A stretch of 64,000 bases of DNA from Beroe forskalii (Eukaryota > Ctenophora > Nuda > Beroida > Beroidae), in NCBI GenBank assembly GCA_011033025.1, contig WFMF01000146.1, positions 310,001 to 374,000 on the forward strand, given 5' to 3'. Position numbers and translations under genes: made by a program. This document shows, in pieces, positions 19,139 to 62,653 of this stretch. The stretch's first letter is position 1. Every line of letters starts with the position of its first letter. The notes beneath the pieces are model-generated. The model made no database searches and was not told the DNA's origin. It worked only from the letters and a program-made list of their open reading frames with translations.

Positions 19139-19416
19139 CTATCTATTGAATTGTTGCTGCAGGTTGAGCCGTTCCATGTCGTCTGACAGCTCTGAGTTGG
19201 TGGTGTCCTTGCTGAAGTGTCCTACACAAGTCTCGTAGACCAGGAAGGTGATGATGGTGAAGGGGATGGTGCGACACAGTTGCAGTGTCCAACCACTGTA
19301 GAGTCCTGCAATCCCTTCCTCTCTGTAGATAATGGCACATGTCTGCCAGAACTTGTGGTAACGTCGGGCTCGCACCTCAGACGTCAAGTCCTCGCGTAGA
19401 CGTGTCCTGATCACCT
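19139..19416 (-). CDS. SLC25A36: SLC25A33/36 exon 8 (repeat 3, C-terminus)
   Basis: It encodes EVIRTRLRED, then YHKFWQTCAIIYREEGIAGL, RTIPFTIITFLVYE and a stop at 19139-19141. The family-consistent start (AG GTG ATC) is preceded by CCACCG and not by a usable acceptor. The nearest good acceptor (GATCAG, exon start 19432) would enter in phase 0, while exon 7 leaves in phase 1. So the border is uncertain or the sequence has an indel. Confidence 0.78.
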
Positions 19417-39386: not shown

Positions 39387-39540
39387 ATGGCCTCGGCTGC
39401 TGGTCCCTTCCCTATTTACTACAACCCTGATGTACACAACTTCTACATAAAGCAGAAACAAGAGTTTCACTTCAATCAGAAAAGTGACAATGAGTTCCTC
39501 ATGTTTTTATTGGACACAGCAGTCAGAGTTATATCTATTG
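39387..39540 (+). CDS. Common exon 1 (N-terminal module)
   Basis: The ATG at 39387 opens 51 codons plus one base. The peptide MASAAGPFPIYYNPDVHNFY continues through a charged helix-like stretch to FLMFLLDTAVRVISI. I do not recognise the domain; its place corresponds to the BTB domain in lola. The donor is ATTG|GTGAGT, phase 1. Confidence 0.75.
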
Positions 39541-42500
39541 GTGAGTCTTTGAAGCCAAAATTCCTTCTCGATTTTGTACTTAAGCACATTTAGAAGCTGA
39601 TTTTTTTTCCGTTCTTGACATGCTGGGATATGTTTTTATTTTCATCTGCATACCGTCGTCCACAAGTTCTGCAATATGATCACCCATGTCTCTGTACTTT
39701 AAGTGATTAGTTAATCATATCTTCAGTGCAACACTTAGCACCAGTAATCGAAGCTGTGTCTGATGCCAGCGCAGATATCGATGAAATCGACGACCTATCT
39801 CCTGAAAATCACATAGCTTCTGCGACCTTATCCGGTAACTTATCAGGTTTAAAATTTGACACACATTTTCTCATTCAATAACAAATGCTGTAGAACAGTT
39901 TTTCATCAGTTAATTTTCAATTTTATGAATGTTGTTTGACTTGCAATGATACCATTTCTCGCTTCAGGTACCATGGAAGTAGACTCGACCACAGTCCCCC
40001 CGTTATCAGTTGAACTGGAGCAAATAAACCAGGAAATCACGAACTCTCAAATCAGTTCCAAATCTAACTTCTCAACGACCCGATACAAAGCTCCGACTTC
40101 TCTGGCACCTACCGAGCCTGAAGTCATTCAAACCACACCATTACTGCAAACATCAGCACCTGTACAGACTGTGTTACAGGCTCCTGTCTTGCAGGCACCA
40201 GCGCCTGTTCAAACTGTATTACACACGCCAGCGCCTGTACAAACTGTATTACAAGCGCCTGTTCAGACTTTGTTACAGACGCCTGCGCCTGTTCAGACTT
40301 TGTTACAAACACCAGCGCCTGTTCAGACTTTGTTACAAACACCAGCGCCTGTTCAGACTGTTCTTCAGAGCACTGTACAAACTGCCGCACCCCCCGTCTT
40401 TCAGCCAAACAAAGCGTCAGCTCCTCCAGTTTCCTCCAAACTAGACCACCCCACGCCGCCAACAGTCACCTCGTCCTCCTTATACAACGAACCCATCACG
40501 TTAACTCCGAATGTTCCTTCAACTCAGCAACCCTCCTCCGCGCAGTCCTCTGAGAATCTCCCCACCACTCTGTCTCCAGCCACACAACCCATCGCTCAAC
40601 CAGCCTCCAGCAACGATGTGAAAACAGAGCTGCCAGTCCCGGAAGTTATCGATATCAAGGAAGAAATGGATGATGTAGACGATCAAGGGACCGATTTACT
40701 GACCCAGGACAGTCTGCAGCAACTCATGTCTTCCATTTCTGCGACAGACGTTAGTTCAGGACTACAGAACTTTGTGCCCACCGCCACTCCCTCCAGTTTA
40801 CCTCCTTCTTTCTTAGATCGGACTTCTAAAAACCCTTTGTCGATGGTGGGAAGTCTGAATGCCGGGGATGGTCCGGGTCCTTCGGGGATCAACGTTCCAA
40901 ACATTCCAGAGAGCATGATGTAAGTCGTGTAGAAATCGCAGAGTAAGATAAAGTGTAATAAAGATTTGATACAAGTTATCATTGTTATTTGTTGTTGATC
41001 CACAAAATTCAATCTTATATTTTGATTCTAATTAGTACACTGCATTACATATTTAGAACAGTATTTTGGTGTTTGATGTTAGCACTTTTACAGGAAGAAC
41101 ATTAGCGACGCCGGACTAGCTGTTTCAAGCATCAAAGGACAAGCTAACCCAAGTAAGATTCTTTCTCTTTTGCAAGTAGAGCGGGAACCAGTACTCGAAT
41201 TCCTCCTTTTTCCTGCACCTTGTACAATGTACAATGTACAATGTACATTGTACCTACAGTGTACATTGTGCACACAGCAAATTTTAGAGGGATGCGGCGG
41301 CGTAATATTGCATTCATTGGCGGCTTTAAATCTGCTTTTCGAAAAATTCCAATAACAAACGCCCAAGGGATATAAAAATTGATGGGTCGTCATAACTGGG
41401 GCCTTTTCTACTGTTTGAAAATTTGTTTTTGGCACTGTACTGCTGTCGACAGTTAGATTTGTACATCATGTAAGACACGGCACAAAATGCTGAAATAAAT
41501 CAGCTTGATTAACTTGATTAATGGTTCCAAGCTCTACTTTAAATGTACAGGTTTACAACTTGCAGTGAAGCTTTTCAATACAATACCAACCTATATCTTC
41601 TAATCTATTTTCTACGCAATATGATAACAATAATGATATTAAAATTCGTATAGTTATACCCATTTGTTACGTAAGATCATCTATTGTATCACAATTTGAT
41701 GTTAATATATAAGTCGGCACTTGTAGCCAAACCATAAAAGTTGGTGGCAATTCCTTTGGTTCAGTTCTATTTCGATCCGTTGCGATTGGATTTGAGTGTG
41801 AAATATTATTCAACTCCAAATGTAGAAAATTTAATGAAAGGACAAATTGGAAAGCACCCAAAGCACCGAATTTTGCTAACATCTAAGCTTTATTTCTGGC
41901 CCTTCTGGCATTTTTCAAACTGTACCACATGATTTGTTGTTAAATTTTTTATTGCTGCAGACGGGGGTGTCTACCAAGCCTGTATTGGGTAATTTACCAG
42001 TAAGTTATAGTTGTGAAACTGGAGGAACTGTTTGTTGTAAGTCACGTCACAACTCATGCGTTTAACCCTTTCAAAACATACAAACTGACAGCTGCTAGAC
42101 ACATTGTTCAATAGCAGAAGTACAGACTCCAACAAACTGACAAACAGACAGACAGACAAACAAACATACATACAGACAATCACAGCCAAACAGACTGGCA
42201 AATATAATAGATAGTCACACTAAAACAGACACTCACAGACAATTCTTACTCAATAGAACCTCACTGACCCACTGGACCCAGTAGAAAACCCCACATTATC
42301 GACTGTGATCCCGCACTGCCCAAGGAACAGGTGCGTTGTAAGTCTTGTCATGGTGTAGTTTTCAGATGCTCTCATTTCCTTCTATTCCGTGCTCCATGCA
42401 TGTTTAAGATGCAAGGGTGTCCTTCTGCTCCCTATATTTATTGATCAATCATGTGCCGTATTTCCCGTTCATTTTAATTGGAATTAATGTTGCTCAATGT

Positions 42501-45500
42501 GTTAGTTTGTTATGCATACCGAAAAAAACTAATTGGTCTGCCTTCATTTTTGGCCGGCCCTTCGGAAAAATGTTTTAAGCTGTCGCCGAGCCAAGGAATT
42601 TTCTCTCAAAGATAGCCACAAAAGCCAATTTAAAATCAGTAAATTGCATCAAAAAACTCAAATGCCAGTCTTGTATCAAAATTGAGGTCCTTTACAATAA
42701 AGGAAACACTAAACACTGTATACTTATAATAACTGAAACATGCCATCCCAAACCTACCACCTCCCCGCCACAGCTACAGACACCAAGCCTCCAGACGACG
42801 CCCTCACTGCCCCAGCGGAATCTGACCAACCACCCAAGAGGAGAAGGCTTTCTACATCCCTTAATGAGGACGTCTTGCTGTACAACGAAGTCCGAGAGAG
42901 ATGCATCTCTGGGGAGCCGATGAAGGACGCTCTTGAGAGGTGTGGAAGTAAAAGGACCGCCTTCTACCAGATGAAACCCATCGTAGAGCTGCTCCTCACT
43001 GATCAGTTCCAGCAGCTGCTGAGTCAGGAGACACGGAAGAAGCAACTGAATGCAGCGTGTAGGGAGGCACTGGCTTCCTCTCCCTTCAAGAGAAAATGTA
43101 GCCACCTCAGAAAGACTGGCCGACTCCTCCCATCCAAATTGTTCTGAATTTACCAGTATAATCAGTTATAAGTAGTGTAAAATTTGCCACATTACGTGTG
43201 ATATGAGTTATGACATAATAACACGTCAATTGTTCGAGTATTACGTCATCTGGTCCTTGATCTGCAGTTCACTGTTCTTGTTGCATGTATTTGTAGTTTG
43301 AAGGCCCACCCCTCACCAGGAGGTCCACTGAGGTGGGACCGGAAGACAAGATCCCGGTGTGGAGCGCACCATGCTCCTCAGCTACCAGAATGTGTTAGCA
43401 GAGGTTAACAGCGGCGTCTCTATCAACCGAGCCATCGCCAAGCACCGCATCAATCGGTCCACCTTCTTCAGGTGGAAGTGGATTCTGGAATGGAGCTGGT
43501 TAACCCAAACCGTCACTTCTCACTCAGTAGAGAGCTGACTTCTAGAGACCTTTACGTGACCTGCAAGAGAGAACTTATGAGTGGGACCTCATACGAGGCT
43601 GCGTCACAGAAACGTCAGGACGGACTTCTACTCCCAATCCACCGGAGTCCCAGCGACACTACTAGTCTAAACGCCTTGCTATTCTAGGACCATTCTGGTT
43701 GGAGGAATTTGTCGCAGTTTTCTTGGTTTCTACCAGATTGTAACACCTGCTGGTTGTATGGCATGTTTGTACCAGTACTATCTAATTGCTGATAAACCGA
43801 GTGTCTCACTCCCCCATTGCTCTATACACGCTCCATCAAGGTCTGCTGCCTAAGTCTCCCAAAACACCCCGGTTTAGACGGACGGGATTTAAATGCTTGA
43901 ACGTCAAACAGTTTGCGCTCTTCCTTGTTGCCTGACCCTCTCAGTGTTCTGCGTTTGTGGGTTCTTTGTAGCGATGTCTAAGAATGCATGTGATTTGGCA
44001 TTATTCAATGGTTTTGAATCAGTTGTAACCAACTAATCAATCAGGCCCAATCAGCATCTGTGGCCGTGGTTTCACAATCTAGTTTACGCCGTGTATGTCC
44101 CAGGTGCGGCGTATTATGCTTTTATCCCATCGCCCTTAACATCAGCAGATCTGCAGATATCTGCGTAGAAATTTAGGAAAAATGGGATGATATTGTCATT
44201 TTTGGTGAAAGACTAGAAATAATTAAACACGGACAAGGTTATAGTTTAGTAGTTTTTAGTACTGGATTTGCGGCGCGAGTTTACGCTAATTCGCTAACTT
44301 ACCATTGATTATCAATCACAAGCACTGCACTTTGACAGCGTGGGAAAGCATAATACGCCGCGTAAACTCTTGGGCGTTACAGGGCGCAAACTCGTATCAG
44401 GGACAATACGCACCTGTGATACAATCTCATTTTGTGTCCCTTTTGTGTTTAATTCCGCACGTTTTATTGCGAAATCAATGTATGTTTTGAGCTTTTGTTT
44501 TGAGTGTCGTTTTAAATAAAACAGTATGTTTTTATTTTTACTAAATAAAACTGGAAATGTGATTCCGAACTTCTGTTAAAATAAAAGCTTAAAAGTAGAA
44601 ATCTGGAGTTTCAGAAGGAGTTCCTCTACAGTAACTACACTTCCCTAAATAGAGGTGAGTTGTTTGTTCACATCACAGTAAGACCACGTGTGTGTTTATC
44701 TGCATAGCTTCTTCTGAAATGCTTCCTCTAAGTCGCGAAATTTGTGAAAATATCCAATATTTAGATAGCAAGGGCATTTTGAAATTGTCCTGGTAACATA
44801 TCTAAGTGATAAGCTAATTGGAAATAATTTTCAAAGCTGGCGGCTAAAATAACCTGCCCCGGGCACAAAGTAATTTATTTGTCTAAATATTTAGCAAACA
44901 TTTCAGCGAATGATAACAATCAAGTGTTTCAATCAAGGAAGCTGTGTGGAATTGTGCGTCCTAGTTGTTGTATTTATGTTTGTGTATTTATGTTCGAACC
45001 TGAACCTATGTTTTCCGTTGAAATACCTAACGTCTGTTGCTAATACTTGAGGAGCTTCACTGCAATTTGTAGATTTGTACATATGCCTACTTGTGGAGCA
45101 CATTGCTAGCTCCATAGCATGACATATACCCAACTAAATCTTGGATCTCGGTAGAATCCTTGGTATAACTCATTGATTGAGTTTTCAATTTTGCAAAATG
45201 ATTTGTAACTTGAGAAAATTCAACAACTCCGGGATTCCCGAATATGTCTGAGAAGATTGCCAAGATTTAGATATTATCATCAAAATGGAGCTAGTGATGA
45301 TCTCCACATTTTGGTTTAATATAGGATTCATTTTCATGATATTATCTTATTCATTTTAATTTTACAACATTTATGGTCATAATTATCAATTTCATAATGC
45401 AATAATTGCTTCGCTTACAACCACTTGTTGTTGTTACCTCCTGTGACTTGTCCTCGGTCTTATGGTCGAATGCAGCACCTATAATCCAATCAAAAATAAA

Positions 45501-48500
45501 GACTAAATAATAATTATCTACACGGGTCTGTTATCTATGACTTGGTTTGGCTCATTTCGAAAAGGCTTAAATTTTACGTTCTTGTATGCTAAGAACTAAT
45601 TATCATGAACTTGTATGAACTACCCGTCAAAAATAGTTGTACCGTCTAAGTATCCCGCTAGTTCCTCGGTGGATTTAAAGCCCATCGTACACTCTGGACT
45701 CAATTCCATGGTAAAATTCTATGGTAGACTCAATTCCATGGTAATATTCTATGGGAGACTCAATTCCACGTTAGACTCAATTCCATCGTAGACTCAATTC
45801 CACGTTAGAATCAATTCCATCGTAGAGCCAATTCCTTGGTTGACGGAATTCCATCGTAGACTCAATTCCACCGTAGACTCAATTCCACCGTAGACTCAAT
45901 TCCATCGTAGACTCGATTCTATCGTAGACTCAATTCCATCGTAGACTCGATTCTATCGTAGACTCAATTCCACGGTAAACTCTCATATTCCACCCCTATA
46001 TTATTTACCTGCTGCCCCCGCCGAAGGACCCGCTGAGACCATCCACCTTTACTACACCAAAGCTCTGGAGCTTGTGAAGGCTGGCACCCGGACAGCGGAA
46101 GCCATCAGAGCCACCGGACTGCCACGCTCCACGTTCTACAAGTGGAAACCCGTGGCGGAACTGAAGATTCTGGCGGGGGAGGACTTCAGGCAGTTCTGTG
46201 CGGGTTACTTTGAGCCTGCAGACCTGCTGCGGGTCTGCAGGGCTGCCATGATGGGGGACCCGTATGCGGGCAGAGCGCAAGCTATGAGGAGAAGCGGGGA
46301 ACTTTGTAGTGGAAAATGAGGAGGATAATGCATTCTTTGATCCGGGTTCATTCAGTTCCATGTTTCCATCCAGTTTTCAAATAAAAAGCAATGTATTACA
46401 GTTTATTTCAAACCGTTATTCGTGTTGTCAGGGGAATGGCTGGGAAACACGATTTTGAGATATGAGTTGGCTATGATGGCCGGGACATGTCCTAACATTT
46501 TTAGAGTGGATTTGGGCCCATGTCTCCCATATTACCCATGCCAATTTTGTGGTTTTGGGAGTTTTCTACGGGCTAACATGGCCAAATTATATCCAATTCA
46601 CTCCAGAATCAGTGTATTCGTAACCAAAATGGCCTCCAGCCACTTGGCCCGCGCTTTGCAATGTTACAATTTGGTCATTTTCAATCCAATGTTGATGAAA
46701 TAAAATGTATGCACCTCTTGATTGAAATGATCTGCACTTCGAGACGTTTGTAAAGCTAAGCTCTATCTCCTCTATTTCGTTTTTGAACCCCATTTTGCCC
46801 CGAGGCGAGGCCTTCGTGCCTTTTAACTTAAACCACTGCCAAAATGTTGGTACATGTCCAGGCCATCTTGTCTGACTCTTAAAGTCGTGTTTTGCAAGTT
46901 AACAGGCCCCAAACCCCCTGCGAATGAAAAGTACGCATCAGGTTTTTAGAGTTCACTGTCACGGTAAAGTCCACTGTTCATGTTGAATTCTGTCGTGGAA
47001 CGGGCGGGCTATTTTCTTCTAACCATTAGAAATAGAAACATCCGGGGTTAGAAAAGTGCTGAGACCTATAGGACCGGAGATAGTTCCCGTAACAGTCGAG
47101 TGGTTGTAAGCGGCATCACATTTCACATGAGCCGGGTTTGGGCAGAGTGACAAGGCTCACTGTATTCGAATACTTTCCCTTCGATAGCGACTCACTCTGT
47201 CCTTACGACGGCGCATTTTCATTCCATAACCCACAAATTTTAGGTCGATGGCACCATGAAATTTTCAGCTTAGTTTCATATTGGCGGCCGAAATTGCATA
47301 AATTTCGTTCGTAAGGTTTTTGCAAAAGTCGCAGTGAAACTGCAAAAAGCCTTGCATGAGCCATCCTAGGGTAGGTCAGCTTGCATAAGAACAAATTTTG
47401 GAAAATTTTGTCTGTCGAGTGTCATTTTCTGGCCATAACTCGAGTCTGGGCGTTTTAGAGTATTCTCTTAGCATTTGTAAAGATGTTATTAGTTCAAGTT
47501 TTTAAGTTAATAGTGATTGTTGTCTTTTTAAAATGATTACTAATTTCTGAAACTGCGTGTCTACTTATTGCTTCTTTACGTTGCTAAAACAACTAGCAAA
47601 ATTCACGTTTATTTGGAAACAAAGCAAAATGGGTAGGAATAGTGTTGTGCGCGGCTTACGCCGCGCGCTATTGTCATTAAAGCGGCAATTTTGCTTGTAT
47701 GATGTTCTTGTTCAAACAGAGCATGAAAACGGTAGTGGGCGGGTTCCATGATTGAAATGTCATGTCAATACTGAAGTCAGCCCAGTTTGATGCGTTGGGA
47801 AATACCTGAATTTGCACAGTCTACAGATTTCACTTCGCTAATAGATCCGTTAGTCAGTAGTTTTGGTCTAGGAAAGGAATCTACCGCAACAGGACATGAA
47901 ACACGAAATGTAAACGTTTGATGGTGCGATATGGGAATAGAAATATCACTATAAAAGTTTGGTTTCGCTTTCTCCGCGAAGAATCATGGAAGGGGAACCA
48001 GATGCTGGGGCCCAGGTTGAGTATTTTGACTTGGAGTGCATATGTTTTGGTAATTCAAACTTGGCATCTTTTTGAATGTGGAAATTATTAATATTGTGCT
48101 TCATTAAACCTGTCACTAAGAGAGTGACATAAGAACTTGGAATCGTTCCAATCACTTTCTGTGGTCTCTTTCATGTCTCATTGTGTGTAAACTCAGCAGT
48201 TTAATTTGGGCTTAAAAAAGTTCTCACTTTCTGCCGTGGTAGAAATACACGTGACTTCCTTTTCCTCTATAAAATGATGGCAGATATGCACTCTGTCAAG
48301 TCGCCGACTCGGCGCTGATCAGTGCCGATGACCGCTTATGATCGCCGATGGACCGTCGATCGGCGCCGATTTGCGCTGATCGGCGACGACCGAAACACCT
48401 GCTTAAGTTATACAAAACGGAGTTTCTCGATTTAAAATTGTAGTGTCCCAACATCGTACCGTTTGACAACCCCGAAATAACCCCGGTTGATGTAAACATT

Positions 48501-51500: not shown

Positions 51501-54500
51501 ATAACAAAGTGTTGAAATTTTTGACTTTCCTTATTCATATTGCACAGTGTCGCTTCTTTCATCGAGCCTCGTTACATTTATATCATAAAAGAAATTTATG
51601 CCGTTCGCACGTCGCAAGTCCCATTTGTGAACAATTTTACAGGCACAAAAGTGAACTCTATACACCATGTTGCCCCAGGTGTCCACTACTCCTGCAAGTT
51701 TTGTGATAAAATGCTGACTTCGTACGGAGGAATGAAGCATCACGAAGAGACAGTCCATCTGAACAGAGCGAGGTACCAATGCCACATGTGCGACATAACC
51801 TTCTCCACCAAATCACACAGGATTCGTCACGAGAAGATTTCCTGCAGGAACCGTCCGATGGAGTGAAATTAGTTAGACATTGTGAAAACCCTATGAATCT
51901 TGGAGTGAAGCTAAATCATGTCTCTTTGAAACTCTGCACTCTTTTTATGTCATGGATATCTTTATATGTTTATATCCACTGTGATTTAAGAGAAATTTAA
52001 TGTCCTATGGATAATTTAAATTGGTTGGTAACTGTATGTTGTTTATCGGGCACCTTATCCTATTTTTGCATATCTTTGTTTTCTTGAATAGTTATTAATT
52101 GATACCAATCTTTAAAACTGTTCATACGGTTTCATCAATATAAACATTTTAGCTATAAATTTGTGTTTAATTTGTGTGTTTAGAAAAATTTTGGATGCCA
52201 AATTTCAATTTTGAGGACTTACTCTAAACACAATGAATCAAATCACCGGCTTTCAATCACGAGCTTTCTTACATCATATGCTATATTAAAGCTCATGCTG
52301 ACGTTGCCATCAACCCACAGGAGGCCTGTATTCCTGTCAGTACTGTAGCAAAGTTCTGACTACTGCCACGGGCATCAGACAGCATGAACAGATCGTTCAC
52401 ATGAAGAAAGCTAGGTACAAGTGTCGACAGTGTGACAGTACTTTCTCTTACATGTCCAACCGGAGATACCACGAGAAAACGTACTGCAAAAACCGTCCTT
52501 CATTGCTGGAAAGGATGTGATGTATTGAAAAAACGTACTGCAAAAACCGTCCTTCCTTGCTGGAAAGGATGTGATGTATTGATGAGAAGACGCACTGCAA
52601 AAACTTTCCTTGGTGGAAAGGATGTGATATATCGACTTATTGACGAGAAAATGTACAGCAAATACCGTCCTTCATTGCTGGAATGCTGGATGTGATGTAT
52701 TGAGAAGGATTTGATGCATTGATACTATGCTGTTAAACCCGTCCTGATTGCTCATATTCCTGGTGCTCATTTAATGGGTGTGGTATCTTGAATTTGTGAT
52801 TATGGAGTTTTCCAGATACTACTTAGAATACTTATTAATTAGGGAAATGGGTATAGATAGTTGGGCATTAAATATCTTACAGCATCATATTTTATTATGC
52901 TTATTTATCTTCATTCATTTTATTCAATGATAGACTTAGGGAACCCTTAGAGGTGACCTATATAAAATGTGTGGTATATAAAAGATGGTTCAATGACCAA
53001 AATTTCGATTTTTAAAGAACTGCATTTGGCACCATTTGCAATGCTATATCACGTACCATATCTAAAAATCATCCAAGCAATCAATTTTTGGTAATTTACA
53101 GTAGCGTATTTAGTCGGGTGTGCTCTTTTTTCAAATCTTCTGAAGAACTATCAATTCCCGGTAAATCTCAGCTGATTTTGAATATACCAGGCTTTTTGAA
53201 AATGAAGGCAGAGGCCTTTTTTGTTTCCTGATGTCTTTTAACGTGATCTGTGAGCTAGTACTTTTTGTGTTCAGTTTTTCTGTGCTAGTGTTCTAAGTCG
53301 TCTAGTTTATTGATCACCTTCAGTGTGCTTGTAGGCAATTAAGTATAATATATTAATATAAATTCGCTTGTTAGCATTGTATAATAAAAAAATCCGAGTT
53401 CAGATTGAAAATGACATAAAGAACTTGTCGAAATAAATGACAGCGTTTTACTTGAGGATTATGATGTCATATTTACTTATTTACATCCACTTCATATTGG
53501 TTTACTCACTCCAATAAAGTAGCCAACAACTTAATACATTAATACCTGTGTGTTGCAGGTGGTAAGATTTCCTGCAAGTTCTGTACCAAGGTCCTCACAA
53601 CGACACAAGGTATCAAACATCACGAAGAAACAGTTCATTTAAAGAGAGCCAGATTTCAGTGTCGGATGTGTGACAATACTTTCTCTTCTCTCTCCAATAG
53701 AAGTTGCCATGAAAAAGCATTTTGTAAGAATCGTTTCAATGCACCCAAAAACTGGTAGTACTGGTCTTAGATCTGAACCAGAAACAAAGAACCTACCAAC
53801 TTCAACCTATCGAAACCCAGAGGCTGTCAGGCCCCTTATTAAGTTATTAGTTCTACTTTGCTGCTCAGATACCATCCAGTCCATCCACCATCAATCAAAT
53901 TATGCCTATTTTAATTGTGGAAAAATCATTTATGTATCAATAATATTGACAGATATTGGAATGAGAATACATATTATCAAAAAATATCTTTCAGTACTGT
54001 GTAAGATAATTTTTTTTATAATGAGGACAGTTCAAAACATAATACTGTTGAGCAAGGACTTTAGAAAATTGATGAAAATTAGAAAGCTCACTTTTTCATT
54101 GTTCATAAATTTTCTCTCGGAATTACTGAATAAGATAAATTTTGTCATGTTTTTTGATGAAAAAATGAATTTCAAAAACAGGACTTTTATTGCAATACCG
54201 GCCAATACCTTCCTCTGAAGTTTCATACCATTTCAATTTTAATACTGCAAAATATGTTATCAATGTAAATTGTCTGCAGGATTTTGTGAAATTTGTGGCC
54301 TACAAGGATTTTCCTCTCTGTATGCACTGAAACTCCACAAGGAGTCTTCCCACCCAGGTGGAGAGATAACATGCAAGCACTGTGGACTGTATTTCAAAAA
54401 CAAGTCATGGCTAAGACGGCACATGGCAGAAGTTCACCTCAAACCTCGTCCCCATCATTGTTCATTATGTAGCATGAGATTCAAGAGAAAGGAACACTTG

Positions 54501-57500
54501 AAGAATCATTTCCGCACAAAGCACAAGGATAAAGATACTATGCTATCAGAGATTTTGTCTTTGAAATAAGTGACTTTTGAATTTGATATGTCTATTAGCA
54601 ATCCTGTAGTTGCACTTAAATCTTATCATTTAATGTACATATTATATCTATTTATGTAATGTCGAATTACTCAGAGCTGTCGACCTTATGTGAGCAGCTG
54701 ATTATTCTTTTAATTATTTAACTTATTGTATAACTTGTGCTCTTCAAGTTTTATCGATCAATCCATTAGAAATTACTAAAAATTAGGAAATTTCTTGTAG
54801 CCTAAACACTAAACAGTACAGTTAGTTAACTGAAATTTCTCGTATCATGATCATGTGGTGACTAGTTTTTTTCAGAGTTGGCTAAGATGGCAAAGACATC
54901 CTTAAATAAGGTCCATAGGCCTCAGAGCAAAAATCACATCCAAATTTTGGATGTGATCCAATGGTTCAAATTTGGATTTTTGATCCAAATTTTTGCTCCA
55001 AGGCCTCACATGGCCACTTTCGGGCCTATGGACTCAAAACCACTGTCAAAATGTTAGTAAATGTGTCCTGGTCATATTGACCAACTCATATCCCAAAATC
55101 GTGAAATTCCAAAAAGTTTTTTGGGACTAAATTGGCATACTTTCTGAAACCAAGGCCATGACTCAGCTCAGTGTAATACTCCCTTTCAGTTTCAGCAGAC
55201 GGCAGGAAATGTCTAATTTGTGGGAAAGAGTTCTCCTTCTCAAAAAGTGTCCGGGAGCACATAATCTCAGTGCATATGAAGCAGCGGCCTTTTATTTGCA
55301 AGTACTGTCACAAGACCTTTGGCACCCAGCCAGCATGTAACCGACATGAGAACCACCATTGCTCCAGAAACCCCAGTAAAGGGAGAATACCAAAACCCTC
55401 AAGTTATCCACTCTGGGACACGAATAATTCATGATTTTATTTGCAGATAGACTTAAAACAACCAAATGAAAAACTTGATAAATTAGTATGATGAATATAA
55501 TCATAAAACTCTTGGCTGCTCCTGCCATTACCTCATTTCTAAATTTCCCAAAAATTGGTGAAAAAGTTTTGATTTGAATCTATAGGAACTGTAGCCATTT
55601 TTTGACAATTCAAGTGATCAAATTTTGGTCAATTCAATTCAAGCTGCAAATATATAAGTTACCTAGGTACTTTATTTTCACATTAATCTTATTGACCCTC
55701 ATTCAACCATCCCTTCAGGATTAAAATCGACTTTGGAGTTTTTGTCCTAAGAGCTAATTAAAAACGTTTAAAGTGGCCATGAGGCATCTTATTTAGACTA
55801 AATGAAATTTGTATTAGAGTTAATAAGCTTATTATACAGTTTTTGATTAACTTAATGTCTCAGTATAGCACAGATTATGACTTAAATCATGAGACCAAAT
55901 CCAGATTTTGAGCATTATAAAGGAGTTTTAGTGTTTAGGTATTTCAGAATATTAATGTCCAAAGAACCAGTTTTTGTGGTTCAAAAATGATTTGATTTTT
56001 GTCCATAGTGCCAGTTAAAAAGTTAAAAGAAGGCCAGTTAAAATCTAAAATGGTACCATTGCATATTAATTTTTATCTGTGATATGAACTATAAATCAAT
56101 ATCCAATAAGTTGAGAATGCACTATTTAGACTTCCCTCATTGCACTTTCCCATCACCGTCATTGCATTCTATTCAATTTCAGATCGGATGTGTCCCATCT
56201 GTTTCAAGATCTTTGCAGAAAAGAAGTACATCAAAGTTCACATAAACACTGTTCACCATAAACTTCGAACCAGCAGGTGCAGAAGGTGTGGTAAAGCTTT
56301 CAGGCAGAATAGCTCAAGATTAAGGCATGAACGGATGAATCGTTGTAAAATGTCTATTTATGATGGCTTTTAACACAGGATTAATTCTGGGCAATTCTTT
56401 GGATAGTTCCCTGTACTTGCTTACTAATACTTTATGTTTAATCTTAGATATCTAGTGAATAGGGTGTGGCACATGTCCTGTAAGAGTGTATGACCCATCT
56501 TAAGATTTTAGTTTATGGAGCAGGAGAATGACAGTCACTGAACAATATTTAACTTACATTATTAAGTGAATTTTATCAACAGTTTAAGTTAAAACAGTTT
56601 GATGTTTGATGAGATTTTTCGATTTTAATTTCATTGACCCTTGAAAACCAGATTATAGTTTTCCGTGGAAGTAACATAAGCCATTGTTCTACAGGTTCTG
56701 CTGGTTTTATAAGTTTATCAAAATTTCTTATTTTATTATCATGATAATGTGGAATGTTATGTGTTCCCAAAAGATCTGCTCTGAAACTCACTGAGCCAGA
56801 AATTAGGAGCAAATTTTAACTACGCTTCAAGGATGAAACTTGTTGTATAAGAACTCAAGTGAGGGGGTGTGGGTTTGGGCTTTCATTACATTAATTAAAA
56901 CGAGGGGTGTTGAAAATGACCAAAAATTGATAACATAATATTTGAACGATCTCTAATGTGTAAACAGGCAATTTGCTCATTTTCGTGTAAGGACTAAGGT
57001 AATGTGTGCTTATTACATACAGGGGGTGTCTTGTGAACACCATTCGACTACTATAGAGGCTCAAACTCACTGCAGAAATATGATTTAGAGCACTCAGCTC
57101 AACTTCCCTATGCCTCAATCTACACAAATGCATTATGCATCATGGGACATATTCAACTTTGAGGCATTTTGAGCATAATATGTTACAAATTTCATGTGAC
57201 TAAAGCAGCTGATCATAAATGAGGCTCAGATTCTCACAAGGGTAAATATCCCTTTTTGGACGAAATTCCTGTCATAGCACCATTTCATGTCATTCAGTCT
57301 AATCAAATCATTCTATACTTCCTTCTCTACTTCAGACCGATCTGCAGACCGAGAGTTTTACTGTTCAGTATGCAGCAGGACGTTCAGAACATCATCCAAT
57401 GCTAAAATACATTTCAATGAAGTGCACCTGGGGATAAAGCCATACAAGTGCCCAAAGTGCTCGAAATCATTCAGCAGACAATCTAACCTCAACAGACATT

Positions 57501-60500
57501 TAACTGTTCATGACTTGAAGGGAAATCTTGGAAAACAGTATGTGTCTTCAGACTCAGAATAATCTTCCTCTTCATTGTGCACACTTTATAGAATGCTAGC
57601 ATCGAATTGACAAATTTGCTTCCTACCAATGCATTTGCTTGTTATCACATAGAGCAAAGCAGTGAGCTGCTGCATGCAGCTGACGTGGATAGTCTACAAT
57701 CTGAGTAAATCAACCTCCAGAGTGAGTTCTTGTCTGCTAAGGAGGAGGTTTTGAAGGTAGAGGATGAAGAGCTTATTAAAGAGATAAAGAGGACTGTGAA
57801 AACAGGGATTAAGAGCTGGGTGGACCTTGTCAATAAGAGCGTAAAGAGTTCTAAAATCACCACCCAAGTGATCAAGGAGGCAGTGAAGTCTGTACTGACA
57901 GAGGAGACTTGTTCACAGAGCGTGATGTGAACGGGTTGAAGGACAGAAAGGGCTCTATGGAAGAAGACACTTGGCAGCAGGTGGAAATCGTGGGGGAAAT
58001 TGAAGTATCATCATTACTATTCAAGTTCTTATTGATTTTTCTTGAAAACTTTCTCTCAATCTTTAGACTTAATGTGGCGTTTGTTGCTATGCTTTGAAGC
58101 AACTTGTCTATGTTTGCTATGTGCAAGGAACTTTTGAAATTAAAAAGTAGTTTTTACATTTTATTAACATTCTTCACTAGTTAGGTCATAGTTATTATGG
58201 ATATACAGTGTGGCATCTGAGAATGATTCTGAAATCTCCACTCACGTGACATATTTCGTTAGAACATGAAACTGATTTGATAATAATGGAATGTAGTGGT
58301 GCCAACCAATTGGAAATTTCAGAGGGATTTTCCTCTCTCAATGTGTGACACCTGTGTAAAATATCCTTCAGTTCACGATTCATGGGTTATTGGCATGTTT
58401 TTTCTTATAATTGCCCTACAGTTGAATAACTTTTAAATTTTTGAATAAGTTTCGTTAGCTAACATAAATTCAATAATTTTAATTGCTTGTCAAGTGTTGA
58501 ATTACTATTTCAACTGTTGAATCACTAACTGTTATTTCAAACTGTCGAATTACTATTTTCAACTATTCAATGGTAATTTTACTGTACTCAAATCACTTGT
58601 TGGCCCCTTTTGGACAATAATAGATCAAATTTGACCACTTCTGCGTATATTTTGACCAATTTCACATCTTGGTTTGTGGCCAAAATTGAAGAAAAATTTT
58701 GTCCCTTCAGCTGATGGTAATGTGTTTTTCAGATCAGATACTTGCCTTTGACGGCCTCAGGTTCCGAGATGGGACCCCACAAACTCGCAAACCTTCTAAA
58801 ACCACTGCACATGTGACATGCACCCACTTAAATAACTTCAGATGCTGAATATTGAATAATTATTATATTTCAGCACTCTCCTTAACCTTTAAGTTGAGTG
58901 CTGAAATATAATAACATTCCTCTAACTAGAGGTGTCGTGTGCTATGTCTGGCTTAAATCATAACTAAAATCTTCATAAAAAACATTGCCATACAAATATC
59001 ATTACTGTCTTTTCGCAGGGTGGATGGAAAGAGACCAACAGGGCAAAACACCACCCAGACAATTGATATCACCTTAGAGCACAAATTGTGCAAAAGCGAC
59101 GCTCATGTGTAATTCTGTGACACAATTTTACAGTTAGGGTTAGGATGTATGATCTGCTCAAGCATTCCCATTGCATAATTTCTGCTTTAAGGTGGTGTTT
59201 GGTCCGAGTGGTGTTATGTCCTGCCATCCTTTGGCATCAATCTGGTTGAATAAGATATAGATTTTCAATTATCTTGGAAGGTAGCTAGACCTATATTACC
59301 TGGGAAAAATGGGCATAATATGTCGTTATCAAAAAGCTGTCAAGCTGCTGGGCTAGAAAAATGCAGCTCAAATAAACTATTTATGACATGGTCCTATATG
59401 ACATATTATGATATTCTTGTGTTCCAGGTGATGATGTGAGGAAGTACTGTGCTCCCTGTAACCGATGGTTCATCAGTGTGAGGAATGCCCAGTACCACTT
59501 CCAGGAAGTCCATCTCCAGATCAAACCATTCTCTTGTAATGAGTGTGGCAGGAGTTTTGGGAGACAGTCATCTCTCAATCGACACCTGGCTACCAAGATA
59601 CACAAGGACCAATATAGGAGGCAGCATCCCAGACAACACAATGATTGAGTTAAATAACCATTGACCATGGCTGTGACCCATATCATTATCAATACAACAT
59701 AGCATTTTTAAGTGATAAACGATGAGAATTGTTACTTTGCATGCTGGATATTATAGTGCAAATTAGTACTTAGGTTGAAGTTTGAATGTTTTAACTGATA
59801 CCACATCAGATACGAAAGGGTTATCCTCAGAAGCTTTCAAAAATCATGTGATAATTGTCATTAAGTTAATATTCTGTATTTGTAAAAAATGCACATACCT
59901 ACGTGCATATTGATATATTAGTTAAATAATTTACATGCTGGACACTGGACAGTGGACATTATGTTATATTCTCAAGAGTGCAAATAAGTTATAAGTATTC
60001 TGCATGTAAAATATAAATGAGGGATGAACTGGATTTATCTACACCAATCTTATTTTCACGAGTGTGGTGTAATTTCAGTAACAGAGGTGTCGACACATCT
60101 GAGATCGGTGTCTGAAATTTCCACAAAACTGCAATTTGTACGTGCGTGATACTGATTTAACAGTATATTCATGTACATATATGGCGCTGTGCAATCAGAA
60201 ATTTCAGAATGATTCTCAATTCTCGAAGTGGCGACACCTCTGTTATACTATTATGTGAGTGTAAATCTTAAGCCAATGTGCATGTGTGCAGATGGATCAA
60301 TCGAATAAGGGATCGTTCACATATTACGTAATCGCCTAGAGGGGGGAGGGGTTTCCGAATGATTACGTTACATGTTATTGTAACAAAAACAACTACTGTA
60401 AACTTGATTAAGAGGGGGAGAGGGGGTTGAAATCGGCCAAAAATTGATTACGTAATATGTGAACGATCCCTAAGGGATTTTCCATTCTCATGTTTGTGAT

Positions 60501-61459
60501 TGTTAGAAATTCTATCAAATAAAGATGCACTAAAAGCAAAATTTTACATCACTATTCATGGATTGATCCAGCTACACGCATTTTATGTGTTACTGACAGT
60601 TGATTTTTTATATTGGTGACAGTAAACAATTGTTCAATGCTATCTATACAGTGTACAGTGTACACATATGGGTCATGATGGGCAGGGCTGAATCTTCTGT
60701 CACATGAATCTGGTGTATTAGATAACTAGACCTATCAGCTGAATTTTTATTCAATGGTTTAATTCTGTGTACTGCAATTTTCAATTCCCTTGAAGTGGAA
60801 TAATCATTGACCATATTCAAACTTTCAAACATTGTTAAATAATTTAGTTAATTCCAAATTTATCTAGCTTTCTTTTTCGTATATTGCAAAGTTTCAAGAT
60901 CAATGATTCATGAAAATCATTCCAATTCATAACTCAATGAAATATTTCCCCTCCAATTGCTATCATTACAAGCAGGCATTGAGGGAGGGTTACAAATGGT
61001 CAGTTTCTGAAAATGGCCCAAAATTTCTATGTATTCCCTCCACTCTCCAGTGTGGCGACCGAGATAACAGCCAATTGAACTTTTAAAAAACTAATGCCTC
61101 CCTCCTTGTTCCATATGGAATCTGCATGTTTTAGTTTATTTTAGGTACTCATATATAATGCTTATCATGTGATTTCAGATGCGGTGTGTCAAATATGTTA
61201 CAAGTCCTTCTACTCTGGTAATGAAGTAAAAGCTCATGTGGAAAGGGTTCACCTCAAGATCAAGAAATACCAATGTGAAACATGTGGCCAGCAGTTTTAT
61301 AAGAGAGGAGATATCCAGAGGCATCACAAGAGACGTTTTCATTTTGGAACTATCAATGTGGAGGGTGAATCTAATCCAGCATGCTACAACTTCCTGAAAG
61401 AGGCTCTTAATTTTCTTGATACTGTGAAGCTGCAAACTGATAGTGAAACTTCAAAATAA
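39387..61459 (+). CDS. Transcription factor locus: 4 common exons plus an array of alternative 3' terminal DNA-binding exons (lola-like architecture)
   Basis: Common exons 39387-39540, 39727-39834, 39968-40919 and 41094-41152 join in frame to 424 codons and end in phase 1. Downstream are 14 candidate terminal modules. Thirteen begin after a canonical AG in the matching phase (two bases, then codons) and run to their own stop. Modules 1-3 encode a helix-turn-helix-like fold. Modules 4-14 encode two or three C2H2/C2HC fingers with a shared VH[LM]-K/R linker before the second finger; module 5 is split over three exons and lacks a phase-matched first acceptor. One protein body with many swappable DNA-binding ends is the arrangement of Drosophila lola and mod(mdg4). 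Here there is no BTB domain. The gene's name and targets are unknown. Alternative splicing is inferred from structure, not observed. Confidence 0.8.
39727..39834 (+). CDS. Common exon 2 (acidic)
   Basis: 108 bp, phase 1 to phase 1, acceptor CTTCAG, donor GTAACT. It encodes QHLAPVIEAVSDASADIDEI and DDLSPENHIASATLS, an acidic stretch. Being phase-neutral it could be skipped without breaking the frame. Confidence 0.8.
39968..40919 (+). CDS. Common exon 3 (P/Q/T-rich, 10-residue repeats)
   Basis: 952 bp, phase 1 to phase 2, acceptor GCTTCAG, donor AT|GTAAGT. It encodes a low-complexity region with about ten repeats of the type TPAPVQTLLQ (30-bp units, about 40150-40390), then Ser/Thr/Pro-rich sequence and the acidic motif VIDIKEEMDDVDD, which contains a SUMO-consensus IKEE. 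A disordered transactivation or protein-interaction region is the likely role. Confidence 0.82.
41094..41152 (+). CDS. Common exon 4 (last shared exon)
   Basis: 59 bp, phase 2 to phase 1, acceptor TTTACAG, donor A|GTAAGA. It encodes KNISDAGLAVSSIKGQANP. Its one-base overhang (A) is completed by the first two bases of each terminal exon. Confidence 0.78.
41217..41275. repeat. TGTACAATG tandem palindrome just after the last common exon
   Basis: Three TGTACAATG copies, then ACATTGTACC and GTGTACATTGTGC. The segment can fold on itself and is dense in TGTA. Confidence 0.75.
41276..42773. other. Intron between the common exons and the first terminal exon
   Basis: AT-rich. It includes a CAGA simple repeat (42138-42240). 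An acceptor at 41959-41960 followed by a ten-codon frame to a stop could make a short alternative end, but support is weak. Confidence 0.45.
42774..43147 (+). CDS. Terminal exon 1: helix-turn-helix-like module
   Basis: It follows CCACAG in phase 1 and ends TTC TGA at 43147. A PPKRRRLS basic signal is followed by about 45 residues of HTH character: YNEVRERCISGEPMKDALER, CGSKRTAFYQMKPIVELLLT. This pattern (short helix, turn, [ST]TFY.[WM]K.[IV].EL) recurs in terminal exons 2 and 3. The acceptor phase matches the common exons. A DNA-binding role is inferred. Confidence 0.78.
43333..43690 (+). pseudogene. Terminal exon 2: helix-turn-helix-like module, frameshifted
   Basis: The phase-1 acceptor at 43331-43332 opens a frame with MLLSYQNVLAEVNSGVSINR and INRSTFFRWKWI, then hits TGA at 43536-43538. 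The next frame (from about 43475) carries the rest of the family pattern (LSRELTSRDLYVTCKRELMS, GTSYEAASQKRQDG) to a stop at 43685-43687. Compared with terminal exons 1 and 3 the two halves form one module, so an indel near 43475-43490 has split it. It may be a dead exon or a sequence error. Confidence 0.6.
44105..44365. mobile_element. MITE-like palindrome, GCGGCGTATTATGCTTT ends
   Basis: GGCGTATTATGCTTT at the left is mirrored by AAAGCATAATACGCCGCG at the right, with GTTTACGC blocks outside both ends. Confidence 0.6.
45705..45980. repeat. 17-bp minisatellite TAGACTCAATTCCATCG
   Basis: About 14 variable copies (CAATTCCATCG, CGATTCTATCG, CAATTCCACGG) end about 45 bp before the acceptor of terminal exon 3. 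Confidence 0.88.
46027..46319 (+). CDS. Terminal exon 3: helix-turn-helix-like module
   Basis: The acceptor GCCGAAG enters in phase 1, and the frame runs to TGA at 46317-46319. It encodes TIHLYYTKALELVKAGTRTA, EAIRATGLPRSTFYKWKPVA and FEPADLLRVCRAAMMG. The A.R.TG[LI].[RK]STFY.WK core is the HTH-like pattern shared with exons 1 and 2. A canonical AATAAA lies about 60 bp after the stop. Confidence 0.78.
46380..46385 (+). terminator. Poly(A) signal AATAAA for terminal exon 3
   Basis: AATAAA about 60 bp after the stop of terminal exon 3, followed by A/T-rich sequence. Confidence 0.6.
46443..46895. mobile_element. MITE family with ACACGATTTTGAGATATGAG ends, copy 1
   Basis: The ends carry GAGTTGGCTATGATGGCC and, inverted, GGCCATCTTGTCTGACTC, plus CCTAACATTTT and AAAATGTTGG. 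A second copy lies at 54845-55110. Confidence 0.65.
46900..48925. other. Spacer before terminal exon 4, no gene seen
   Basis: It includes a short CGGCGC-type stretch (48296-48390) related to the GGCGCC element of the SLC25 intron. No terminal exon with matching phase and stop was found. Confidence 0.5.
48296..48390. repeat. CGGCGCTGATC-type GC-rich palindromic fragment
   Basis: CGACTCGGCGCTGATC, GATCGGCGCCGATT and CGCTGATCGGCGACG blocks resemble the composition of the element at 28414-29598. Probably a decayed relative. Confidence 0.5.
48978..49180 (+). CDS. Terminal exon 4: two zinc fingers
   Basis: Acceptor TTGTTCAG, phase 1, stop at 49178-49180. Finger 1 CGYCGKVFRGNSRMSNLKRH has two extra residues between the second Cys and first His (x14 instead of x12). 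Finger 2 is CPACDNAFRRKEHLQKH with a normal C2H2 layout. The second finger resembles the last finger of terminal exon 9. Confidence 0.82.
49110..49305 (+). repeat. Partial duplication of the 3' end of terminal exon 4
   Basis: The block CAGAAACACATCCTCAACAA through the stop and GTAGAGGAGA is present twice (49110-49190 and 49230-49305), separated by GA-rich repeats. The second copy lacks the finger start. Confidence 0.88.
50010..50585 (+). repeat. Minisatellite of CACTGCACCCCTT units (12-13 bp)
   Basis: About 45 variable copies of TTCACTGCACCCC. All frames appear open because stops are rare in it; the long frames here are repeat artefacts. Confidence 0.9.
50732..51336 (+). CDS. Terminal module 5: zinc fingers split over three small exons
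   Basis: Exon a ends at 50816 (CNECGATFCESS, donor C|GTGAGT). Exon b is 50970-51047 (LKRHKRDVHETKTKKCDYCD). Exon c is 51257-51336 (ANRLRQHMTRHNS, stop TAG). Joined, they give two perfect C-x2-C-x12-H-x4/x3-H fingers, and both introns (about 150 and 210 bp) fall inside fingers in phase 1. The start of exon a is unclear: the acceptors near 50731-50770 are not in phase 1 with the finger frame, so another exon or an indel may precede it. Confidence 0.55.
51679..51866 (+). CDS. Terminal exon 6: C2H2 plus C2HC finger pair
   Basis: Acceptor GCCCCAG, phase 1, stop at 51864-51866. Finger 1 is CKFCDKMLTSYGGMKHHEET followed by VH. Finger 2 is CHMCDITFSTKSHRIRHEKI followed by SC, with Cys in place of the last His. 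Close paralogue of exons 7 and 8. Confidence 0.85.
52321..52520 (+). CDS. Terminal exon 7: C2H2 plus C2HC finger pair
   Basis: Acceptor ACCCACAG, phase 1, stop TGA at 52518-52520. Finger 1 is CQYCSKVLTTATGIRQHEQI; finger 2 is CRQCDSTFSYMSNRRYHEKT ending in YC. It is followed by tandem copies of its own 3' end. Confidence 0.85.
52473..52710 (+). repeat. Tandem copies of the 3' end of terminal exon 7
   Basis: The block with AAAACGTACTGCAAAAACCG, TCCTT..TTGCTGGAAAGGATG and TGATGTATTGA recurs about four times with increasing divergence. Confidence 0.88.
52711..53558. other. Spacer between terminal exons 7 and 8, no gene seen
   Basis: AT-rich; nothing recognisable. Confidence 0.45.
53559..53758 (+). 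CDS. Terminal exon 8: C2H2 plus C2HC finger pair
   Basis: Acceptor GTTGCAG, phase 1, stop TAG at 53756-53758. Finger 1 is CKFCTKVLTTTQGIKHHEET; finger 2 is CRMCDNTFSSLSNRSCHEKA ending in FC. With exons 6 and 7 it forms a clear tandem-duplication trio. Confidence 0.85.
54280..54569 (+). CDS. Terminal exon 9: three zinc fingers
   Basis: Acceptor TCTGCAG, phase 1, stop at 54567-54569. Fingers: CEICGLQGFSSLYALKLHKE (one extra residue), CKHCGLYFKNKSWLRRHMAE and CSLCSMRFKRKEHLKNHFRT. The last finger resembles finger 2 of terminal exon 4. Confidence 0.85.
54845..55110. mobile_element. MITE family with ATGAGTTGG/TAAGATGGC ends, copy 2
   Basis: The left end AGAGTTGGCTAAGATGGC and right end ATGACCAACTCATATCCC are inverted. 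The centre is a hairpin with ATCCAAATTTTGGATGTGAT. Related to 46443-46895. Confidence 0.65.
55196..55434 (+). CDS. Terminal exon 10: C2H2 plus C2HC finger pair
   Basis: Acceptor AGTTTCAG, phase 1, stop TGA at 55432-55434. Finger 1 is CLICGKEFSFSKSVREHIIS; finger 2 is CKYCHKTFGTQPACNRHENH ending in HC. A 25-residue tail (RIPKPSSYPLWDTNNS) follows. Confidence 0.85.
55435..56182. other. Spacer between terminal exons 10 and 11, no gene seen
   Basis: AT-rich; nothing recognisable. Confidence 0.45.
56183..56373 (+). CDS. Terminal exon 11: C2H2 plus C2HC finger pair
   Basis: Acceptor AATTTCAG, phase 1, stop at 56371-56373. Finger 1 is CPICFKIFAEKKYIKVHINT; finger 2 is CRRCGKAFRQNSSRLRHERM ending NRC (His-x5-Cys). 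Confidence 0.84.
56900..57125. repeat. Interspersed repeats: half of a GATCGTTCA MITE and second copy of the AAGGTAATGTGTGCTT repeat
   Basis: 56900-56955 matches one end of the MITE at 60309-60470 (CCAAAAATTGATAACATAAT, GAACGATC). 56995-57125 matches 16612-16745 (GGTGTCTTGTGAACACCATT, GACTACTATAGAGGC). Confidence 0.7.
57336..57562 (+). CDS. Terminal exon 12: two C2H2 zinc fingers
   Basis: Acceptor ACTTCAG, phase 1, stop at 57560-57562. Fingers CSVCSRTFRTSSNAKIHFNE and CPKCSKSFSRQSNLNRHLTV are joined by a VHLGIKPYK linker. Paralogous to terminal exon 13. Confidence 0.85.
57650..57985 (+). pseudogene. Fragment of a non-LTR retrotransposon ORF1-like coding sequence
   Basis: A mostly open frame with LSAKEEVLKVEDEELIKEIK, TGIKSWVDLVNKSVKSS and TTQVIKEAVKSVLTEE resembles the helical ORF1 region of some invertebrate LINEs (…TEIKSWSDVV…VKEAV..V..EE). 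It has an in-frame stop upstream (TAA near 57706) and a frame change at about 57925, and no RT domain. Confidence 0.45.
58205..58357. mobile_element. MITE family with ACAGNGGTGTCG-like ends, copy 1
   Basis: The left end ACAGTGTGGCATCTGAGAAT and right end ATGTGTGACACCTGTGT are inverted. TTCTGAAAT and ATTTCAGA pair inside. Related to 60080-60248. Confidence 0.6.
58358..59427. other. Spacer between terminal exons 12 and 13
   Basis: It includes a loosely palindromic stretch at 59013-59225 (GGATGG.AGAGACCAACAGG and a partial inverse). No further exon was recognised. Confidence 0.45.
58861..58913. repeat. Perfect 18-bp hairpin stem
   Basis: TATTATATTTCAGCACTC pairs with GAGTGCTGAAATATAATA across a loop of about 17 bases. 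Confidence 0.85.
59428..59648 (+). CDS. Terminal exon 13: two zinc fingers
   Basis: Acceptor GTTCCAG, phase 1, stop at 59646-59648. Fingers CAPCNRWFISVRNAQYHFQE and CNECGRSFGRQSSLNRHLAT (His-x5-His) are joined by VHLQIKPFS. Close to terminal exon 12 in the second finger. Confidence 0.85.
60080..60248. mobile_element. MITE family with AACAGAGGTGTCG ends, copy 2
   Basis: The left end TAACAGAGGTGTCGACACAT and right end TGGCGACACCTCTGTTATA are inverted. CTGAAATTT and AAATTTCAG pair inside. Confidence 0.7.
60277..60586. mobile_element. MITE family with TGTGCAGAT ends, copy 4, interrupted by another MITE
   Basis: The left end ATGTGTGCAGATGGATCAAT and right end ATGGATTGATCCAGCTACAC belong to the family at 15921, 17381 and 17911. 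The element at 60309-60470 lies inside it. Confidence 0.65.
60309..60470. mobile_element. Intact GGGATCGTTCAC MITE with TAA target duplication (Harbinger-like)
   Basis: 162 bp with inverted ends GGGATCGTTCACATATTACG and its complement, flanked by TAA on both sides (60306-60308, 60471-60473). A three-base TAA duplication is typical of PIF/Harbinger elements. Degenerate relatives lie at 30263-30410, about 14390-14500 and 56900-56955. Confidence 0.8.
61179..61459 (+). CDS. Terminal exon 14: two zinc fingers with a long tail
   Basis: Acceptor GATTTCAG, phase 1, stop TAA at 61457-61459. Fingers CQICYKSFYSGNEVKAHVER and CETCGQQFYKRGDIQRHHKR (His-x5-His) are followed by about 40 residues ending LDTVKLQTDSETSK. 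Last terminal exon found in the window. Confidence 0.85.
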
Positions 61460-62620: not shown

Positions 62621-62653
62621 GAGTGATTCCCTGCTCTCTTCATCGCATTCACC

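Follow-up and report, generated by a model that had tools for sequence, protein, structure and literature searches.

The closest described systems are the Drosophila genes lola and mod(mdg4). According to an excerpt of PMC11426971, 17 of the 20 lola isoforms carried different C-terminal C2H2 fingers, the alternative ends of mod(mdg4) were mostly of the FLYWCH type, and the TTK-type BTB domain was not found outside Arthropoda. In mod(mdg4), four constitutive exons were joined to one of >30 alternative 3' ends, and these ends lay on both strands and were all joined in trans (excerpt of PMC12692577).

The window, i.e., the whole 64,000-nucleotide stretch analysed here (bases 310001-374000 of contig C188 in the 216-Mb, 1134-contig assembly of Beroe forskalii), harboured one member of a ctenophore gene family, and this family very probably operates in the same way as Drosophila lola and mod(mdg4), with common exons spliced to one terminal module. 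The likeness to lola consisted of common 5' exons plus alternative C2H2 ends, and that to mod(mdg4) of a common 5' part that closes in one phase plus many terminal exons each with an acceptor and a stop, the ctenophore side of both being known from DNA alone. There were also clear differences, as far as the two excerpts describe the insect genes: (i) the front end of lola is a BTB domain of the TTK type, whereas the ctenophore loci had an apparently unrelated front end, were several in number, and used homeodomain, SIX, and HTH ends too; and (ii) the ctenophore zinc-finger ORFs defined by HMM lay 83/83 on one strand, in contrast to the ends of mod(mdg4) on both strands. Because the TTK-type BTB is unreported outside Arthropoda in that source and none was detected here, the relation to lola and mod(mdg4) is taken as an analogy, and no membership is claimed. 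The architecture is known from insects with BTB front ends, and its occurrence in a ctenophore would be new: among the literature matches listed, which were mostly open-access and were assessed from their titles and the opening lines of their abstracts, no such arrays were found in ctenophores or outside insects.

In the proposed model, the conserved N-terminal domain comes from the four common exons, whose frame closes in phase 1, and a single terminal exon would be attached to exon 4. This exon would be chosen from the many that lie downstream, each of them composed of a small DNA-binding module and a stop. One locus would give tens of transcription factors with a common front end and differing DNA specificities, and the joining might proceed in cis (alternative splicing plus polyadenylation) or in trans.

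Structure of the common exons

All four common exons lay on the plus strand of the window. Exon 1 (39387..39540) had an ATG start with an in-frame stop directly upstream of it, 51 codons, and a phase-1 end, and it encoded the conserved N-terminal domain; exon 2 (39727..39834) was of phase 1-1, with an alternative donor after 39846, and its segment VQHL(A/S)PVIEAVSDA was common to all ten loci read; exon 3 (39968..40919) was of phase 1-2 and comprised a low-complexity linker, the C-terminal segment of which was also conserved at paralogous loci; and exon 4 (41094..41152), with 20 codons, was of phase 2-1, with A as its last base and the donor AA/GTAAGA (slash at the splice site). The three introns between them measured 186, 133, and 174 nt, and the common donors scored 2.9-4.7 bits. 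The sequence-only reading had proposed four common exons ending in phase 1, and this was reproduced when exons 1 to 4 were joined by script, giving a single open frame that ran from the ATG through 424 codons and left over one base (A), in phase 1.

At E<=1, Pfam assigned no family to exon 1 alone or to exons 1 plus 2, and nothing to exon 3 beyond one chance-level match (E 0.88); exon 1 had no PDB match at E<=10. The TTK-type BTB domain was absent from the Pfam results for exons 1-3, in agreement with the earlier statement that the locus has no BTB domain. The common N-terminal domain probably serves in oligomerisation or cofactor binding.

A conserved element was sought in intron 4, and only a palindromic TGTACA-rich hairpin was found, at 41220-41272, about 70 nt past the exon 4 donor (z -2.6 as an RNA hairpin); a similar stretch was present about 4.8 kb past exon 3 of the C158 locus. 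Elsewhere in the window, the minus strand contained a 700-codon ORF at 5900-8002, receptor-like by eye with LDL-A repeats plus seven helices, and an ORF at 19139-19471 that by eye fitted the SLC25 carrier named previously.

Array of terminal modules on contig C188

Downstream of exon 4 and on the same strand, the window contained three HTH candidates followed by ten C2H2 modules. HTH-A (42774..43147) had a phase-1 acceptor at 42774, 42780, or 42816, and it was assigned as HTH by similarity to sister modules, having no Pfam match of its own. HTH-B (43333..43687) was degenerate, with a frameshift and no usable acceptor, and would represent either a pseudo-module or an assembly indel. HTH-C (46027..46319) matched CCDC106 (E 1e-4, under the cut-off) and HTH_23 (E 9e-4), and its phase-1 acceptor was weak (score -0.2), with a higher score at a phase-0 site. 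Minisatellites were present within array introns at 50010-50578 and 45697-45972, with units of about 14 nt and 17 nt, respectively, and the 17-nt one overlapped higher-scoring out-of-phase acceptors near HTH-C.

Each of the ten C2H2 modules ended in its own stop. A phase-1 acceptor was found for modules 1 (48978..49180), 2 (51679..51866), 3 (52321..52520), 4 (53559..53758), 5 (54280..54569, with three fingers), 7 (56183..56373), 8 (57336..57562), and 9 (59428..59648), as well as for module 6 (55196..55434), which had further phase-1 acceptors at 55190 and 55199. For module 10 (61179..61459), the nearest CAG was in phase 1 and a phase-0 acceptor at 61145 scored higher; this exon was the exception to the rule that the top-scoring acceptor was in phase 1, which held for 9/10 of the window C2H2 exons. 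Pfam recognised C2H2 in all four finger exons scanned of these ten, and FLYWCH was absent from the Pfam results for the ten sequences of one scan and the seven of another. As to the thirteen in-phase terminal exons counted at the outset, the ten C2H2 exons and HTH-A stood, whereas HTH-C (weak acceptor) and HTH-B (frameshift, no usable acceptor) did not; the supposed fourteenth, multi-exon module was not found.

The array did not end at 61459, as had been thought, since 13 further listed zinc-finger ORFs followed beyond the window on the same strand of C188, at window-equivalent positions 64331-84633, with the contig ending at window-equivalent 87311. Between two array modules, a 306-codon ORF at 62627-63547 on the plus strand encoded a DDE transposase domain of the ISXO2/IS1595 type (PF12762, E 9e-20), which we take to be Merlin-like. 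No Rfam family was detected in the window at gathering scores.

Distribution of paralogous loci in the genome

At E<=10, the exon 1 protein had 17 matches across the assembly; the one on C1 (E 0.79, 29% identity) was dropped, leaving 16 places with the window included, and a repeat search with the exon-1 copy of C158 gave the same 16. These corresponded to about 15 loci, because C388 and C423 were a probable allelic pair (96.7% over 688 bases). The window locus had been read as one locus of this kind, and it was borne out as such, although as one of about 15 sharing exon 1, so that the reading had been too narrow. The most diverged exon-1 copies were 43-54% identical over the matched part. Exon 2, sought by its V-x-H-L start, was present past exon 1 in all ten copies read, and a G/GT donor followed exon 1 in nine of the ten, the one without it being C846. 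Seven loci, the window among them, had the conserved exon 3 end, with C158 only at E 0.014, and the exon 3 donor was again in phase 2 in C158 and in C202 minus; C202 minus also had, by eye, an exon 4 that agreed with window exon 4 in its phases and in its last base, and an exon 4 of C158 was looked for and not found.

Finger exons were carried downstream of exon 1 and on the same strand by nine loci, and two more were added by weaker matches, namely C250 by one weak place (E 0.0033) and C165 by homeodomain matches only (E 8e-4 and 0.023). When the window finger exon of module 8 was used as the query, 161 matches were obtained; among the 150 listed, 55 lay <=75 kb downstream of a same-strand exon-1 copy, at nine loci, and none lay <=75 kb upstream of an exon-1 copy. 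Four of the module 8 matches were flagged as opposite because the two arrays on C202 converge. With a C158 finger exon as the query, 150 of 291 candidates were scored, of which 130 lay <=75 kb downstream of a same-strand exon-1 copy, 5 on C319, and 15 elsewhere.

The resulting number of finger modules was about 180, composed of (i) 101 HMM-defined zinc-finger ORFs in the DNA read (C158, 54; C188, 24; C202 minus, 5; and C319, 18) and (ii) 77 merged search places (C543, 41; C202 plus, 20; C846, 6; C326, C247, and C77, 3 each; and C250, 1), the latter being counted as places and not as verified exons. The median spacing of modules was 0.65-1.2 kb.

The two arrays on C202, headed by exon 1 at 267624 (+) and 369588 (-), faced each other, and their exons 1 differed by only two synonymous changes in 43 codons, which suggests a recent inverted duplication of the head. 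On the minus strand of C202, a tandem duplication (352300-349900 and 347968-345500, 95.5% over 2.4 kb) comprised two finger modules and one homeodomain module, and a single-ORF papain-family cysteine protease gene with an I29 propeptide (366153-364771) was nested on the same strand between two HTH modules of the array.

Several further observations concerned the genome as a whole. For the S1 lobe of an ionotropic glutamate receptor (iGluR) at one locus, Mnemiopsis ML032222a was the best match (112.9 bits), followed by 4zdm (81.4 bits), presumably a Pleurobrachia structure, and by the next entry (66.1 bits). Longer iGluR queries placed full-length mammalian kainate receptors first (240.8 vs 215.8 and 135.1 vs 131.9 bits), the Mnemiopsis entry being a 256-residue construct. 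Three of eleven iGluR loci were compared with the Mnemiopsis receptor, and none matched it near-identically. The mitochondrial genome was contained in a 13.3-kb contig, its cox1 read TGA as W, and ARAGORN found no tRNA in the 9,999 bases read. The S1-lobe match and the reduced mitochondrial genome agree with a ctenophore.

Diversity of DNA-binding ends

The earlier suggestion of two classes of terminal module gave way to at least four kinds across the family: C2H2, CCDC106-like HTH, homeodomain, and SIX plus homeodomain. In C202 minus, Pfam identified homeodomains at E 8e-19 and 1.1e-12, and a second copy of the former was detected by HMM in the duplicated block; homeodomain matches downstream of exon 1 were also present on C165 and C77. 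C158 harboured two SIX modules, at 148393-148971 (SIX1_SD, 1.7e-15; homeodomain, 5.1e-5) and 149790-150281 (SIX1_SD, 2.2e-11; homeodomain, 7.4e-7), both with finger modules on either side (147.2 and 152.0 kb). Neither had a Met before the SIX domain, and both had phase-1 CAG acceptors, with a higher-scoring phase-0 site for the first.

Among the six HTH modules scanned, CCDC106 (PF15794) exceeded the cut-off of 30.2 bits in one (C202 358292; 38.4 bits, E 1.6e-9) and stayed below it in C202 367402 (24.4 bits, E 3e-5), HTH-C (22.6 bits, E 1e-4), and HTH-B (11.9 bits); HTH-A and the C158 HTH had no Pfam match. Some HTH modules matched the C-terminal part of the PF15794 family, and the difference from that family was that the matched part here formed an alternative terminal exon. 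HTH-C additionally matched nine places with 37-38% identity (E 7e-14 to 8e-16) on C218, C691, C263, C358, C531, C380, C736, C891, and C171; none of these nine contigs held an exon-1 copy, and the places perhaps belong to a gene or mobile-element family that was the source of the HTH modules.

In Mnemiopsis, an excerpt of PMC2959044 described 18 SINE-class homeodomains, five of which (MlSIX59a-e) were without W48 and were cut at codon 57. By eye, the C158 SIX modules resembled these five in having KNYFKNKR instead of the usual W48, and one of the two C158 modules likewise ended early, about two residues past homeodomain position 53; they differed from SIX/sine oculis genes and from MlSIX59 in lying within a zinc-finger array with no Met before the SIX domain. 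The missing W48 and the early end suggest, as a lead, an age of the arrays greater than that of a single species.

Acceptor phase, strand, and coding features of the modules

Acceptors were scored with a generic frequency matrix. The best acceptor was in phase 1 in 57/73 regex-defined modules vs 111/306 control ORFs (Fisher 8.9e-11), and in 65/77 HMM-defined finger modules of three arrays, with 12/77 otherwise; these 77 were the 83 HMM zinc-finger ORFs minus 5 without a finger pattern and one without an AG. The array on C319, which was held out and played no part in the set-up, gave phase 1 in 16/18 (p 1.7e-6). The HTH, homeodomain, and SIX modules gave 8/11, the exceptions being HTH-B, HTH-C, and the first SIX module. 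The same test on the nearest YAG was weaker (phase 1 in 48/76); in-frame CAG glutamine codons probably interfere. As for strand, all 83 HMM-defined zinc-finger ORFs of the three arrays were oriented with their array, vs 0 in the opposite orientation (C319, 18 and 0); a looser pattern gave 74 and 2, and both opposite ORFs were non-finger by eye. Chance ORFs were rejected as an explanation on the 83 vs 0 strand split and on the acceptor phase relative to the controls.

In 62 modules the phase-1 acceptor had a score above 0, and 54 of these contained no Met between acceptor and first finger; in 48/78 modules there was none back to the upstream stop. Modules without such a Met therefore cannot use a local ATG start. 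These counts bear on the alternative that the modules are independent small zinc-finger genes, each receiving a spliced leader at the acceptor seen and unrelated to the common exons. Leader trans-splicing is frequent in ctenophores (excerpt of PMC8527503), and 8/62 modules did have a Met between acceptor and finger; however, a non-coding leader would be indifferent to phase, and the exons here were coding and showed the phase-1 preference in both the three arrays and C319, most modules offered no Met past the acceptor, the H. californensis leader as printed had no ATG, and the arrays were placed downstream of same-strand exon-1 copies. Independent leader-spliced genes are thus very unlikely, and spliced leaders alone were rejected on the phase-1 bias and the missing Met. 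With the swappable-end model, the existence of leader trans-splicing nevertheless has to be counted in part as a difficulty, since it makes another kind of acceptor, even if it explains neither the phase nor the missing Met.

A phase-1 donor of >=2.9 bits, the score of the weakest common donor, was found between the last finger and the stop in only 1/96 modules, and one of >=2.0 bits in 4/96; hardly any module had such a donor before its stop, and the modules are therefore regarded as terminal. A threshold of 5 bits gave no information, since the common donors themselves reach just 2.9-4.7 bits. This result was set against one long serial zinc-finger gene with its exons joined in a row, for which phase-1 donors would allow in-frame joining: the few donors just given could serve it, whereas the modules were identified as ORFs that terminate in a stop, and a phase-1 donor of common-donor strength was missing from nearly all of them, so that serial joining was rejected and its probability is close to nil.

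Selection was assessed on both the common and the terminal parts. Exon 1 of C188 and that of C247 displayed 13 synonymous and 0 nonsynonymous differences over 43 codons, six close exon-1 copies had dN of 0 to 0.034 with dS of 0.09 to beyond 1, and for the distant copies (C388, C250, and C158) dN was about 0.2, dS being saturated in most cases. Finger modules formed 29 pairs with >=60% identity; dS was defined for 18 of them, with a median dN/dS of 0.25 and none >1, indicating purifying selection. A decaying array of functionless pseudo-modules would fit the frameshifted HTH-B and some C158 and C202 ORFs that looked truncated or were without good acceptors, but it is most improbable in view of this median dN/dS, the near-zero dN among close exon 1 copies, and the finger residues, acceptor, and stop kept in most modules.

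Taken by phase, strand, missing starts, missing internal donors, and selection, the view that one N-terminus serves many alternative DNA-binding ends was well supported, and from these features we infer the joining itself. Some results counted against this model: the common introns were <200 nt, yet modules lay up to 43 kb from exon 4 in C188 (and those of C158 reached about 58 kb from exon 3); 12/77 best acceptors were off phase 1, the scores came from a generic matrix, and a few modules had no good acceptor at all; C846 was without the G/GT donor and C158 without a found exon 4; and poly(A) signals were not enriched, AATAAA/ATTAAA occurring within 200 nt past the module stop in 21/83 vs 24.9% at random and 38/83 on the antisense strand of those stretches.

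An array with no detected exon 1

The array at C319:193196-220252 contained 18 zinc-finger modules, and no exon-1 match was found on this contig in two genome searches, and an HMM screen of 50 kb, including 20 kb upstream of the array, likewise gave no exon 1. Helicase-like ORFs were seen by eye about 7-9 kb upstream of the array on the same strand. Either this array is served in trans, or its front exon is unrecognisable.

In a trans version of the model, the common exons and the groups of modules would be transcribed separately and then combined in trans in the manner of mod(mdg4), perhaps with the aid of the spliced-leader machinery, and some arrays would need no common exons of their own. 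C319, with 18 modules, phase 1 in 16/18, no detected exon 1, and helicase-like ORFs upstream, speaks for it, as do the great distances between the common exons and the last modules and the fact that ctenophores trans-splice leaders onto many mRNAs, spliced leaders being common in these animals (excerpt of PMC8527503). On the other side, nine loci (eleven if the weaker matches are included) had exon 1 and modules together in cis on a single strand, a strongly diverged or different first exon at C319 would escape detection, and the median module spacing given above leaves scant room for one promoter per module; on balance, the trans version is less likely than not. Rather more doubtful is a genome-wide trans system, in which about 15 donor N-termini and at least about 180 terminal modules, some of them in orphan arrays like that of C319, would be joined by the same phase-1 code. 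If that system were true, an early-branching animal lineage would make much of its transcription factor repertoire, homeodomain and SIX included, combinatorially at the RNA level.

Implications for ctenophore transcription factors

If the model of common exons spliced to one terminal module is true, whether joining occurs in cis or in trans, these loci would probably be an independent invention on a larger scale than that of the insect genes, with an apparently unrelated front end, many paralogous loci, and several unrelated folds as ends. The rules of long-range alternative splicing or trans-splicing would become testable outside insects. Counts of ctenophore zinc-finger and homeobox genes may then mislead, as some of the "genes" counted would be exons of these loci.
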